Shown piece after piece: positions 6,735-53,944 of a DNA stretch of 64,000 bases (positions are counted from its first letter, which is position 1; every line of letters starts with the position of its first letter). The notes under the pieces are model-generated. The model searched no databases and was not told the DNA's origin. It saw only the letters and a list, made by a program, of their open reading frames with translations. The stretch is from Virgibacillus sp. AGTR (GTDB lineage: Bacteria; Bacillota; Bacilli; Bacillales; Amphibacillaceae): contig NZ_JAJERH010000009.1 of assembly GCF_016919725.2 (NCBI RefSeq), positions 1 to 64,000 on the forward strand. The letters run 5' to 3'. The position numbers and the translations under genes are program-made.

Positions 6735-7322
6735 TTGGACGGTTTTAAACGAAGACGGGAGTTAAAAAAATCACATATTTTAGAGGCGGCCTTAAGTTTA
6801 TTTATGGATTTCGGTGTACAAAAAGTCGCTATTAAGGAAATAGCTACAAAAGCAAATGTATCTCAGGTAACGATTTATAATTATTTTGGCAGCAAGGATA
6901 ACCTTGTCCAAGAAGTAATTAAACATTATATAAATAAAGCATGGTGGGAATTTGAAGAATTATTTAACAGCGATTTACCTTTCCATGAAAAAATAAAGGG
7001 GATTATTTTTGCGAAAAAGGAAACAGCCCAGCATATACATTCTAATTTCTATGACGTCATTATGAAAGAATATGCAGCTGGAACTAGTTATGTTGAAGAG
7101 TTGTATCAAAAAAAGGCACTGCCTAAAATGATGGCTTTATTTGATGAAGGAAGGCGTGACGGATTTATCGATCCTAACCTATCAAATGAGTCACTTCTAA
7201 TGTATTTACAAATATTTAAAGAAGCTATGCAGCGTGAGGATATCTATAAACAAATACTGCCGATGACCGAGGATATTGTAAAAATCTTGTTTTATGGAAT
7301 TGTTGGAAAAGGGGAATCTTGA
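6735..7322 (+). CDS. TetR/AcrR-family repressor, divergent from the ABC exporter
   Basis: A 195-residue regulator with a typical N-terminal TetR helix-turn-helix (residues about 10-56: ILEAALSLFMDFGVQKVAIKEIATKANVSQVTIYNYFGSK, split here across the helices) and a variable ligand-binding C-terminus. It begins with TTG at 6735-6737, preceded by gaggtgag at 6-bp spacing. It is transcribed away from the exporter operon and the inverted repeats between them are its likely operators, so it should derepress the exporter when a substrate binds. The ligand is unknown. Confidence 0.88.
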   Translation: MDGFKRRRELKKSHILEAALSLFMDFGVQKVAIKEIATKANVSQVTIYNYFGSKDNLVQEVIKHYINKAWWEFEELFNSDLPFHEKIKGIIFAKKETAQHIHSNFYDVIMKEYAAGTSYVEELYQKKALPKMMALFDEGRRDGFIDPNLSNESLLMYLQIFKEAMQREDIYKQILPMTEDIVKILFYGIVGKGES

Positions 7323-7382
7323 TTTTTTTGAGATGCAGCCAGAGCTAAGGCAGCCCTGTGCACTAAATAGATTATACTCACA

Positions 7383-7482
7383 TATAAAGTGAAACTTCAA
7401 TCAGTGGGGGTTTTGTTTATCCCCCCAAATATTCACTTTATTACTTGAAGTGTGGGACTTACTGTCAGTTATATGCGGGAGA
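7383..7482 (+). repeat. Family I structured repeat, copy A (internally deleted)
   Basis: It starts tataaagtgaaacttcaatc and has the 5' hairpin arms gtgggggt and atcccccc. It then jumps to the 3' part (attcactttattacttgaag, then ttactgtcagttatatgcgg). About 80 bp of the middle is missing relative to copies C, E and F. Confidence 0.8.
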
Positions 7483-7517
7483 ACTAGAAAGAAAAAGATG
7501 TTTGAAACGTATAGAAT

Positions 7518-8439: not shown

Positions 8440-8712
8440 CTATTTTTCTTTTGTTAAATCATTAATATTTGCCACAGACTTTCTAACATATAAAGAAGGA
8501 TCGTTAATCAGAAGTTCCAATAAACATAAATTATTCAATGGATTACCAATATTGGTTTCAATTTAATGGTTGAAGTGAGGGTCTTACTACCAGTTATATG
8601 CGGGATAAATAACTGTTCTTCAAATAATGGGGAGTACGGTTTGATCAAATCAGTCAGACGCTTGGCTAAATCACTGGAAAATGAATATTTTAAAGCAATT
8701 GTATGAACATCC
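8440..8712 (-). pseudogene. Broken DNA-alkylation-repair-like (AlkC/YhaZ, HEAT-repeat) gene
   Basis: Two minus-strand fragments flank repeat copy B. The upstream one (about 8612-8712) reads HTIALKYSFSSDLAKRLTDL, followed by IKPYSPLFEEQLF. The downstream one (8440-8545) reads LELLINDPSLYVRKSVANIN and ends at TAG. NDPSLYVRKSVAN is the typical HEAT-like motif of AlkC-type alkylpurine glycosylases, which continue well past it; here the frame stops about 10 residues later. The middle of the gene (over 200 residues) is gone and a family I repeat remnant occupies the junction. The C-terminal match is clear; the N-terminal assignment is weaker. Confidence 0.55.
8546..8609 (+). repeat. Family I structured repeat, copy B (3' part only)
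   Basis: It holds the 3' portion: ccaatattggtttcaattta, then gttgaagtgagggtctta and ctaccagttatatgcgggat. It lies at the junction of the two fragments of the dead alkylation-repair-like gene. Confidence 0.75.
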
Positions 8713-21362: not shown

Positions 21363-21640
21363 TAAAAAAACCCGCCCCTAGATAGGGACGAGTTTCCACC
21401 CGTGTTACCACCCTGATTCCAGATAATGTATATGCAATACAATTATCTAGCACTCATCAACGTACTATCATACGCGCCCCTTTTAACGGCGGGTCCCCGG
21501 GAAAACTTAAATGAATATTCAGCCTTCCTTCTCAGAGAGGATATTCAGCATAATGGGAACATTGGCTTGCAGCAAATCACCAACTCTCTAAAGATCCACA
21601 TTTATACCTACTCATTCTCGTCAACGAATGTAACCGTTTG
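21363..21640 (-). ncRNA. T-box leader (tRNA-sensing), candidate tyrosine specifier
   Basis: On the minus strand a complete T-box leader is visible: Stem I with the AGTA motif, then GAA-TAT at 21546-21541 in the register used by the known Oceanobacillus glyQ T-box (GAA-GGC), the T-box AGGGTGGTAACACGGG (21414-21399), and an intrinsic terminator (21363-21394) ending in a run of T. TAT specifies tyrosine; the TGGT bulge fits a tRNA with discriminator A, as expected for tRNA-Tyr. One-base register error would give ATC (isoleucine). No sizeable gene follows. Confidence 0.85.
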
Positions 21641-21722: not shown

Positions 21723-21912
21723 ATAAAATGAAACTTCCATCCTTGGGGATTTTTGTTTATCCCCCACGGTTTGGTAGTACCACAAGGGTATGACCTAAAG
21801 GCTTTTGAATCAATCGGACATTTACTGGCAGCCTATCCCTCGCTTACCAATAATTGTTTCACTTTATTGCTTGAAGCTGGAATCTTACGGCCGCTTATAT
21901 GTGGAATAAATC
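21723..21912 (+). repeat. Family I structured repeat, copy C (full length)
   Basis: A full-length copy from aataaaatgaaacttccatc to ttatatgtggaataaa. It contains the core ggtagtaccacaagggtatg and the ttgtttcactttattgcttg segment. Both hairpins are partly decayed here (ctggcag faces cggccgc), so it looks like an older copy. It lies between the T-box promoter and the esterase gene. Confidence 0.8.
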
Positions 21913-27384: not shown

Positions 27385-27516
27385 TTAAATAGAAACTTCA
27401 ATTAGTGAATTTTGTTTACCCCCCACTAATTGGTAGTACCACAAGGATATGACCTAAAAGCCCTAGAACCAACCGGACATATAACTGGCAGTTACTGCCA
27501 GTTATATGTGGGGAAA
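27385..27516 (+). repeat. Family I structured repeat, copy D (shortened)
   Basis: The 5' stem is CAATTAGTG / CACTAATTG, a different sequence from other copies but fully paired. The core taccacaaggatatgacc is present. The 3' hairpin is reduced to a perfect AACTGGCAG-tta-CTGCCAGTT, with the inner segment deleted. Confidence 0.8.
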
Positions 27517-27585
27517 ATTTCGTATTCCTCGGATTGCAGTTCGGAGTATCTTCATTTTTTATCTTTTAGACTAAGGCAACAACTC

Positions 27586-35586: not shown

Positions 35587-35684
35587 CTTCGTCTTCCTCC
35601 CTTAAAATAGCACCTTATAATCTAGTCATACCTTCACATCCATGTCACCTTGTACCGCTAATAATCAATATAGCTAACGATACA

Positions 35685-35862
35685 TTGAAACTTCAATCAG
35701 TGGGGGTTTTGCTGTCCTCAACTGCTTGTTCGTACCACAAGGGTATGACCTAAAGCCTTTGAACCAATCGGACATTTACTGGTAGTCGATCCCCCACTTA
35801 TCCATATTGGTTTCACTTTATTGCTTGAAGTGGGGCTTACTGCCAATTATATGTGGGATAAC
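35685..35862 (+). repeat. Family I structured repeat, copy E (full length)
   Basis: It starts ttgaaacttcaatcagtggg, has the core cgtaccacaagggtatgacc, and shows the 3' hairpin clearly: CCCCACTT facing AAGTGGGG, plus AACCAAT facing ATTGGTT. The 5' right arm is degenerate (gtcctcaactgc). It ends atgtgggataac. It lies between the monooxygenase gene and a broken phosphotransferase gene. Confidence 0.8.
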
Positions 35863-35874
35863 CGTCTACATGCT

Positions 35875-45354: not shown

Positions 45355-45556
45355 GAAAAAAAGACCATTACAAACAGAATGGTCTAAAGGATGACCCTTG
45401 GACCTTTCTCCCCAGATTTAACAAAACGCTTACGAGGTTAGCTGTCGGATTAGGGACTGAGAGTATCCCTTCTTAACTAGTAAGATTCACCCCAAGACAG
45501 GAATTTATCCTATCAAAAATGGTTCCCCCGCTCAAAGGATTCAGCGAATAAAAGGC
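45355..45556 (-). ncRNA. c-di-AMP riboswitch (ydaO-yuaA type)
   Basis: On the minus strand the conserved core is readable: CGCTGAATCCTTTGAGCGGG, then GGAACCA, GGGGTGAATC, and CAGCTAACCTCGTAAGCG. The expression platform is a terminator with a perfect 8-bp stem (agaccatt 45362-45369 with 45378-45385) and a T-run ending at 45355. High c-di-AMP should favour termination and lower KtrAB. The 45182-45354 stretch between it and ktrA shows nothing else recognisable. Confidence 0.93.
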
Positions 45557-52863: not shown

Positions 52864-53673
52864 ATGCGAAATTATTATCCTTTACAACCACCAATCTTTG
52901 AAAAGAGCCTAGGAAACCCAAACTATCAATATCAAGAATATTTACCTAGTAAGCTTTTATCTGATTATGTTGTATGTTACTGGTCTGTCCATTACCATCC
53001 GTTAGATACCTATCCATTACATCGAATTGTTCCAGACGGCTGTATCGATATTATATTCGACCTTCAATCAACTTCCTTAGCAAAGGGCTCCTTTGCTGTC
53101 GGCTTAATGACCACATTTGAAACAATGAAACTCAGGCAAAAACAAAACCTGTTAGGAATTCGTTTTTATGCAGATACGGCACGCCGATTTATTATGTATC
53201 CTCCCGCCGAATTAATGGATACCCAAGTACTTCTTGAGGATATATGGGGGCAGGAGGCTTCGCTTTTGCAGGAAGATTTGCTATTGTCGAAAAACCTTCC
53301 AGAGAAAATTAACAAAATTGAAATGAAGTTAGTAAAGCTTTTATCAAAAAATACACATCGCACAGATTTATTACTAGAAACAAGTATGCAATACTTGTTT
53401 ACAAATCTGGGTATCTTCCCCATACGCACACTAGCAGAAAAGACCCATTTTAGTGAAAGAACGATTAGAAGGGTCTTCAAGAAGGAATTAGGTGTCAGTC
53501 CTAAAGCATTTTCTAATATTATTCGATTTCAAAGTTCATTAAAAGAACTACATGATAATCCCTCATCGTTATCTAACATAGCAGCAAATTATGGTTATTA
53601 CGATCAATCGCATTATATTCATCAATTCAAACGTCATTACGGCCAGTCACCGAAGCAGATTCTATTAAAATAA
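52864..53673 (+). CDS. AraC-family transcriptional regulator
   Basis: A 269-residue regulator. The N-terminal half (about 1-150) matches the DUF6597-type sensor found in such proteins (VVCYWSVHYHPLDTYPLHRI, VPDGCIDIIFDL). The C-terminal half has two helix-turn-helix motifs (FSERTIRRVFKKELGVSPKA; YYDQSHYIHQFKRHYGQSPK). The gagaggg site precedes the ATG. Its stop codon lies at the very edge of family I repeat copy F, so the repeat may have supplied the stop. Target and ligand unknown. Confidence 0.88.
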   Translation: MRNYYPLQPPIFEKSLGNPNYQYQEYLPSKLLSDYVVCYWSVHYHPLDTYPLHRIVPDGCIDIIFDLQSTSLAKGSFAVGLMTTFETMKLRQKQNLLGIRFYADTARRFIMYPPAELMDTQVLLEDIWGQEASLLQEDLLLSKNLPEKINKIEMKLVKLLSKNTHRTDLLLETSMQYLFTNLGIFPIRTLAEKTHFSERTIRRVFKKELGVSPKAFSNIIRFQSSLKELHDNPSSLSNIAANYGYYDQSHYIHQFKRHYGQSPKQILLK

Positions 53674-53857
53674 AGGAAGACTTCAATCCTTGGGGATTTT
53701 ATTTATTCCCCAAGGATTGGTAGTACCACAAGGGTATGCCCTAAAGGCTCTAGAACCAATCGGACATTTACTGGCAATTGATTCCACACTTAGCCTTATT
53801 GGTTTCACTTTATTCCCTGAAGTAGGGGGCTTACTGCCAGTTATATGCGGGGTAAAA
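53671..53857 (+). repeat. Family I structured repeat, copy F (full length, best preserved)
   Basis: Starts at the AraC stop (taaaggaagacttcaatcc). The 5' hairpin is a perfect 12-bp stem, CAATCCTTGGGG / CCCCAAGGATTG. The core is tggtagtaccacaagggtat. The outer 3' hairpin pair TGGCA / TGCCA is kept. Ends ttatatgcggggtaaaa. Confidence 0.85.
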
Positions 53858-53944
53858 CTTAGATTCGATTGTCCGTTTTTTACAATAACGTACATTCATT
53901 CTTATGCTATTATGTGTTTACCACAATATAAAGGAGTGAACACG

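Follow-up and report, generated by a model that had tools for sequence, protein, structure and literature searches.

IS200/IS605 elements move one folded DNA strand at the replication fork. Together with their derivatives, REP and PATE, they share hairpins beside the ends, lack of inverted repeats, a fixed landing site and a bias in replication strand with the repeat analysed here. The closest named element is bcr1 of the Bacillus cereus group. Okstad is said to have described, in 2004, a TTTAT motif at each bcr1 end, and the present element has ATAAA, which is TTTAT on the other strand, at both of its edges. The mobility of bcr1 is tied to a TTTAT motif (PMC6542083), bcr1 has a conserved fold and a length of 147–167 bp (PMC2267715), and, over all 18 bcr families, 84 of 165 and 62 of 155 repeats are transcribed in two B. 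cereus strains (PMC3446304).

The element, found in Virgibacillus and called family I, is comparable to bcr1–bcr3 as these sources (PMC6542083, PMC3446304, PMC2267715) describe them: short, dispersed, present in many copies, MITE-like, conserved in fold and tied to TTTAT in its mobility. Its module-free form of ~158 nt compares with the 147–167 bp given for bcr1 in PMC2267715; copies in the window are ~187 nt long owing to a module. We regard the element as a variant of the bcr1 kind and not as a proven member, the likeness being one of described features and not of bcr1 sequence. The original prediction knew of no named family that fits. This holds for Rfam, since no Rfam family, Bacillaceae-1 RNA (RF01690) included, reached its gathering score in the window copies, but it does not hold for bcr1, which resembles the element in its reported TTTAT-tied mobility.

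Copies in the window and the layout of the element

The window is the whole stretch of DNA that was analysed, 64,000 nucleotides of a Virgibacillus contig. Six copies, A to F, had been claimed in it by eye. All six were recovered by a covariance model (R1), all on the plus strand, which confirms the observation of a six-copy dispersed hairpin element; its interpretation is partly supported. A profile HMM bore out copies C, E and F as full length and A, B and D as truncated, and the coordinates first given for A, C, D, E and F were right to within about 5 bases. The full-length copies are F, with a TACC/GACC module (53670–53858, R1 E = 3.5e-47, HMM positions 1–187), E (35680–35864, R1 E = 3.2e-42, HMM 2–186) and C (21723–21912, R1 E = 1.1e-42, HMM 1–188); these three are rows of the R1 training alignment, which inflates their scores, and A, B and D, being outside it, are independent tests. 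Copy D (27385–27519, R1 E = 1.9e-25, HMM 3–110) has lost most of the interior of the long arm P4. Copy B (8543–8609) consists of the 3′ third only (HMM 121–187, E = 4.2e-12; R1 match at 8488–8611, E = 1.2e-5). Copy A (7384–7484) retains two ends with the middle missing (HMM 1–42 at 7384–7425 and 135–187 at 7432–7484; R1 match at 7307–7486, E = 1.9e-5). The window also holds a c-di-AMP riboswitch at 45412–45556 (minus strand) and, at a distance of 90 bases from copy C, a T-box leader at 21381–21633 (minus strand).

Among 172 copies chosen because both their ends are complete, ATAAA forms both limits of conservation. Between the two ATAAA lie hairpin P1, a slot, the linker GAACnAATCGG and P4, which has three helices; one copy is a scaffold of about 155–158 nt with a slot for a small module. 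In copy F, read on the plus strand, the left ATAAA at 53670–53674 (TTTAT on the other strand) marks the left element edge, in agreement with the conservation edge over the 172 copies. P1 occupies 53684–53719, where CAATCCTTGGGG (53684–53695) pairs with CCCCAAGGATTG (53708–53719), a pairing that covaries. The slot, delimited by sequence and by the length classes given below, extends over 53722–53756 and contains TACC/GGTA and GACC-type small hairpins. P4 and the right end follow at 53758–53856 and correspond to helices 2–4 of the 27-row alignment described below. The right end itself reads GTAAA (53852–53856), one substitution from the consensus ATAAA.

As originally observed, no terminal inverted repeats are visible, and the left ATAAAGTGAAAC and right GCGGGATAAA ends are not inverted repeats of each other. 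Classical MITEs with terminal inverted repeats are likewise small, non-coding, dispersed and extragenic, but the element has no such repeats and its site is fixed. A MITE of a DDE transposon was considered and rejected, terminal inverted repeats being absent from the element ends. By eye, ATAAAGTGAAAC may pair at long range with GTTTCACTTTAT inside P4 in Virgibacillus copies.

Compensatory changes had been proposed for the hairpins from the six copies. They were found in 13 of 34 predicted pairs, which change on both sides in 18 Virgibacillus copies. A mutual-information screen was dominated by two subfamilies (CTGGCAG/CTGCCAG versus GGTGCTG/CAGCACC) and was replaced by an alignment with one row per source. 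Its 27 rows come from 25 genomes, one plasmid and one prophage contig, with 25 of the 30 loci L214–L243 used and L237, L240, L241, L242 and L243 omitted by choice. Pairing was found in 93.4% of the cells and both-side changes in 24 of 32 pairs, for a structure that was drawn from one row and is favoured by that choice; none of 500 shuffles reached any of the observed values, and slid structures gave 7–11 pairs. Covariation, whose absence had been set beforehand as the refuting result, is therefore present. In P1, 11 of 13 pairs change on both sides in the same alignment. P1 is also found nearly unchanged (CAATCAGTGGG) across several bacterial families.

Single copies behave differently from the family. 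In the main stems of 180 mostly decayed Virgibacillus copies, A.C mismatches are about as many as G.U mismatches (149 versus 128 in P1, 80 versus 60 in P4b). Single copies therefore look neutrally decaying, and the compensation is one between source elements. The selection on base pairing that was first suggested would apply to the fold that source elements keep and not to each copy. Copies in a better state have more G.U than A.C mismatches on the covarying strand (33 versus 15, p = 0.013).

Slot contents and spread of the element

Over 204 paired copies the slot measures 8–12 nt in 49, 28–44 nt in 151 and more in 4, one of the last (L102) being a chance pairing of two neighbours. The core TACCACAAGGGTATG, earlier taken as the most conserved part, is indeed conserved; since 49 of the copies have the 8–12 nt slot, it is a module that can be absent: the ~158-nt form lacks it, and other sequences take its place elsewhere. 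Among relatives the slot is empty, carries the TACC/GACC module or carries the Rfam Bacillaceae-1 RNA. The latter occupies the slot at full model length and with 77.3 bits in an IMG/VR contig (L119, 9137–9203). In G178, a genome from another family of the same order, the Bacillaceae-1 motif lies in the slot of a ~222-nt class (8 copies read), and Rfam confirms it in L271 and L277, again at full model length. Membership in a known Rfam family had been named as a result that would speak against a new element; it fails for the window copies, and the family in question sits inside their relatives. Bacillaceae-1 RNA differs from the element in being a 67-nt module and not a whole element, in occurring in other settings outside the scaffold as well, and in its absence from the window copies. 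It is itself a dispersed multi-copy motif, present in 28 of 41 relatives of the Virgibacillus genome with up to 85 in one (L189, L195 and L196 are examples).

Some G178 copies hold a second structured module (GCGACAAGC...GACCTCGAGC) inside P4 (L277:2003–2357; L272 near 1491710–1491993), for which no Rfam match was obtained in L272 or L277. The layouts returned by a strict end search in pieces of G178 comprise 35 that lack both modules, 10 that carry Bacillaceae-1, 1 that carries the second module and 2 that carry the pair. They are not frequencies: some pieces overlap, so that two copies or more entered the count twice, and truncated copies and a few chance pairs are among the 35. The second module adjoins Bacillaceae-1 in another genome as well (L189). 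In three V. proomii loci (L056, L064 and L089) the slot is filled by arrays of ~60-nt hairpin-like units (CTTGTCCTTGAAAAAGAAGTACGC...).

The genome that contains the window has at least 149 matches to the full-length model and one fragment (150 of 1812 candidates scored); some of these matches are a shorter, ~160-nt form. A module-free scaffold model (R2), trained on 20 module-free copies, found the scaffold in at least 48 of 398 sampled Bacilli genomes and in 26 of 146 genera; the filters were stricter here and the candidates in each genome few, which makes the count a minimum. In contrast, bcr1 is described as restricted to the B. cereus group, and the genome studied here is a Virgibacillus. 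If our reading is right, a kind of element thus far described for that group alone is spread over Bacilli; if the element is homologous to bcr1, the restriction of bcr1 to the group falls. The sample of 398 contained no genome with a B. cereus 16S signature, and no B. cereus-group plasmid matched the element. Open-licence PMC literature yielded no earlier report outside the B. cereus group or with a link to Bacillaceae-1.

Close copies, in 69 stretches, come from records named Virgibacillus, Oceanobacillus, Amphibacillus and Aquibacillus, one "Roseburia sp." and one Bacilli assembly, and the genome studied here groups with Virgibacillus. The Roseburia record (Roseburia sp. 1XD42-34, L040, NZ_QWLJ01000001.1) carries the element under a name that is probably wrong. 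A plasmid record of Klebsiella grimontii (CP079755.1, 221561–221624) contains a 68-base match, at 81%, to the 5′ part of the scaffold, which may be due to transfer, contamination or chance. Contig L109 matched two phage records at 78% and L114 none, and the integrase of L116 matched at below 60%. In V. proomii, copies at different sites are up to 97.8% identical, a sign of recent spread.

Landing site and replication strand

No explanation by mobility had been found when the six copies were first described. This view does not hold: the element behaves as a mobile one, with filled and unfilled sites and with tandem arrays in which neighbouring copies have one ATAAA in common. Because this ATAAA is shared, a possible target remains at the end of every copy. 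Filled and unfilled sites were compared within another repeat, family II, of which 58 copies were recognised in 0.8 Mb of the genome of a relative, G005. The element is present at ATAAA in 11 of the 58; the unfilled copies read ATAAA in 27 cases, ATTTA in 15 and otherwise in 5. In 10 of the 11 filled sites, all of a single relative direction and two of them holding 97.8% identical elements, so that they may reflect few independent events, the right flank resumes as in unfilled copies. Filled sites are flanked on either side by ATAAA or a sequence one base away from it, and unfilled sites carry one; the second ATAAA could be a duplication or the element's own end. Family II is a few hundred bases long, begins with GAACAAAGGC and ends near TTTTATACTTTCTTAT (for example L136:5683 (−), L136:17301 (−) and L144:10269 (+)), and it also seems to follow the replication strand. 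None of 104 G005 copies of the element lay within an ORF of at least 100 aa found by a simple ORF caller.

The single plus orientation of the window copies, independent of gene direction, was borne out and proved to be part of a chromosome-wide replication-strand effect. Orientation against the direction of replication, a check proposed with the original prediction, was scored on the one-contig chromosome of G005. Among the matches listed, 134 of 150 follow the replichore, mostly on the minus strand up to ~1.9 Mb (66 of 71) and mostly on the plus strand beyond (68 of 79), with the split placed near the best fit, which slightly favours the count. Of the 20 pieces taken between 0 and 1.1 Mb, 19 have a positive GC skew, and all 20 pieces from 1.96 Mb onwards have a negative one. 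The polarity is similar across thirds of the copies ranked by score (47, 42 and 45 of 50). Copies in the lagging sense amount to 12 of 12 where both neighbouring ORFs are lagging, 50 of 59 where both are leading and 87 of 99 overall, so it is replication and not transcription that sets the orientation.

In the genome of the window, 116 copies share a contig with at least one other copy; 112 of them agree with the majority strand of their contig, and copies can thus mark replichore direction even in draft genomes. The ~160-nt class of G178 fits in 40 of 53 cases (p = 3e-4) and the short class in 17 of 19, and the 222-nt class alone has no strand bias (14 of 23, p = 0.40). The covarying strand is the lagging-strand sense, and its complement (5′-TTTAT CCCGC...CACTTTAT-3′) lies in the lagging-strand template.

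A model of movement and its alternatives

We hold with moderate confidence that Bacilli harbour a widespread family of mobile elements, non-autonomous and of the bcr1 kind, that family I is its Virgibacillus branch, and that the complement strand moves as single-stranded DNA at replication forks. The fixed 5-base site, precise joints, lack of inverted repeats, end-adjacent hairpins and tie to the replication strand point to one folded strand moving at the fork. The complement would move as folded single-stranded DNA and be attached on the 3′ side of a TTTAT that lies exposed in the template of the lagging strand. The joining enzyme would be supplied in trans, with the hairpins as its presumed signals, and copies would decay once inserted. 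If right, this fork model yields a landing rule that can be tested, namely TTTAT in the template of the lagging strand, with orientation set by replication; filled and unfilled sites offer a direct test of movement. The model would also account in part for the dispersed, multi-copy occurrence of Bacillaceae-1, an Rfam RNA whose role is unknown, and would point to a mobilising enzyme not yet recognised.

As the closest working model for this enzyme we tentatively take an HUH/Y1 enzyme like those of IS200/IS605, though we think it less likely than not. At E ≤ 1e-15, Y1 (PF01797) was found in 29 of the 48 genomes that have the element and in 147 of the 350 that lack it, among the 398 Bacilli (odds ratio 2.1, p = 0.02, uncorrected for kinship), a weak association. 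None of six matches listed, out of seven, in the genome of the window is an intact Y1 gene; five have internal stops and one covers 52 of 121 positions. A Y1 enzyme may have been lost there. G021, with at least 7 elements, has no match to PF01797 or to reverse transcriptase (PF00078). An autonomous copy, that is unpaired 5′ and 3′ ends enclosing a gene, was not found in 148 pieces totalling 1.9 Mb; the widest high-scoring pair of ends lies 2.4 kb apart in Amphibacillus (L079), and the ORFs between them are by eye not transposase-like.

A broader reading would see in the element a scaffold of folded nucleic acid in which two slots have exchangeable contents, A being empty or filled by Bacillaceae-1 or, in Virgibacillus, by TACC/GACC, and B being empty or filled by the second module. 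Its mover at replication forks would belong to neither the Y1 nor the reverse-transcriptase family, and Bacillaceae-1 would in part be cargo of the element. We think this conceivable but doubtful.

Somewhat less probable, and in our judgement unlikely, is that the fork model applies with a canonical Y1 transposase of an insertion sequence as the mover, so that the element is an ordinary IS200/IS605 derivative. Subterminal hairpins, missing inverted repeats, a fixed pentanucleotide and the lagging-strand-template bias all agree with such an origin, as does the weak genome-level association with Y1. Group A IStrons speak for this reading as well as for the fork model in general: they have an IS605-type part and land downstream of TTGAT, ATTAT or TTTAT (PMC4227781). 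Against a canonical Y1 mover stand the Y1 matches listed for the Virgibacillus genome, none of them intact, and the lack of any in G021; the element also differs from the IS200/IS605 family in having ATAAA on both sides. Moreover, G178 has an intact Y1 element whose two copies show where its ends lie; these differ from the ends of the scaffold element and, in our reading, adjoin TTGAT.

A tyrosine-recombinase-type enzyme might instead recombine folded single strands at TTTAT, somewhat like integron attC. The fixed 5-base site on both sides, the precise joints, the one-direction arrays and the strand bias would suit it, but the recombinase is purely putative and the comparison with attC is drawn from general knowledge; we consider it improbable.

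A shade less probable still is an RNA intermediate. Here the 3′ AUAAA of a transcript would pair with the 3′ TTTAT of nascent DNA at the fork, a reverse transcriptase would copy it, and the TTTAT end of the cDNA would pair again with the template, repeated rounds giving tandem arrays. The presence of ATAAA at both ends, common to neighbours in arrays, and the RNA-like modules, one of them an Rfam family, agree with this scheme. So does the slight G.U excess of better-kept copies, which suits folding of the covarying strand and not of the strand that moves in the fork model. However, most copies have their covarying strand directed opposite to the fork, and PF00078 had no match in G021 and G004 and only one, below the curated cut-off, in the copy-rich G003. 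The findings in G021 and G003 speak against mobilisation of an RNA by a retroelement, and no link between PF00078 and the element was seen in 41 genomes.

Finally, a host-serving structured RNA or polar chromosomal signal, with copies kept in one replication direction for the benefit of the cell, would account for the strong strand polarity and for a fold kept across many genera, but it is very unlikely given that copies decay with G.U about equal to A.C mismatches, that the best- and worst-scoring thirds are similarly polar, that three of the six window copies are truncated and that unfilled sites exist.
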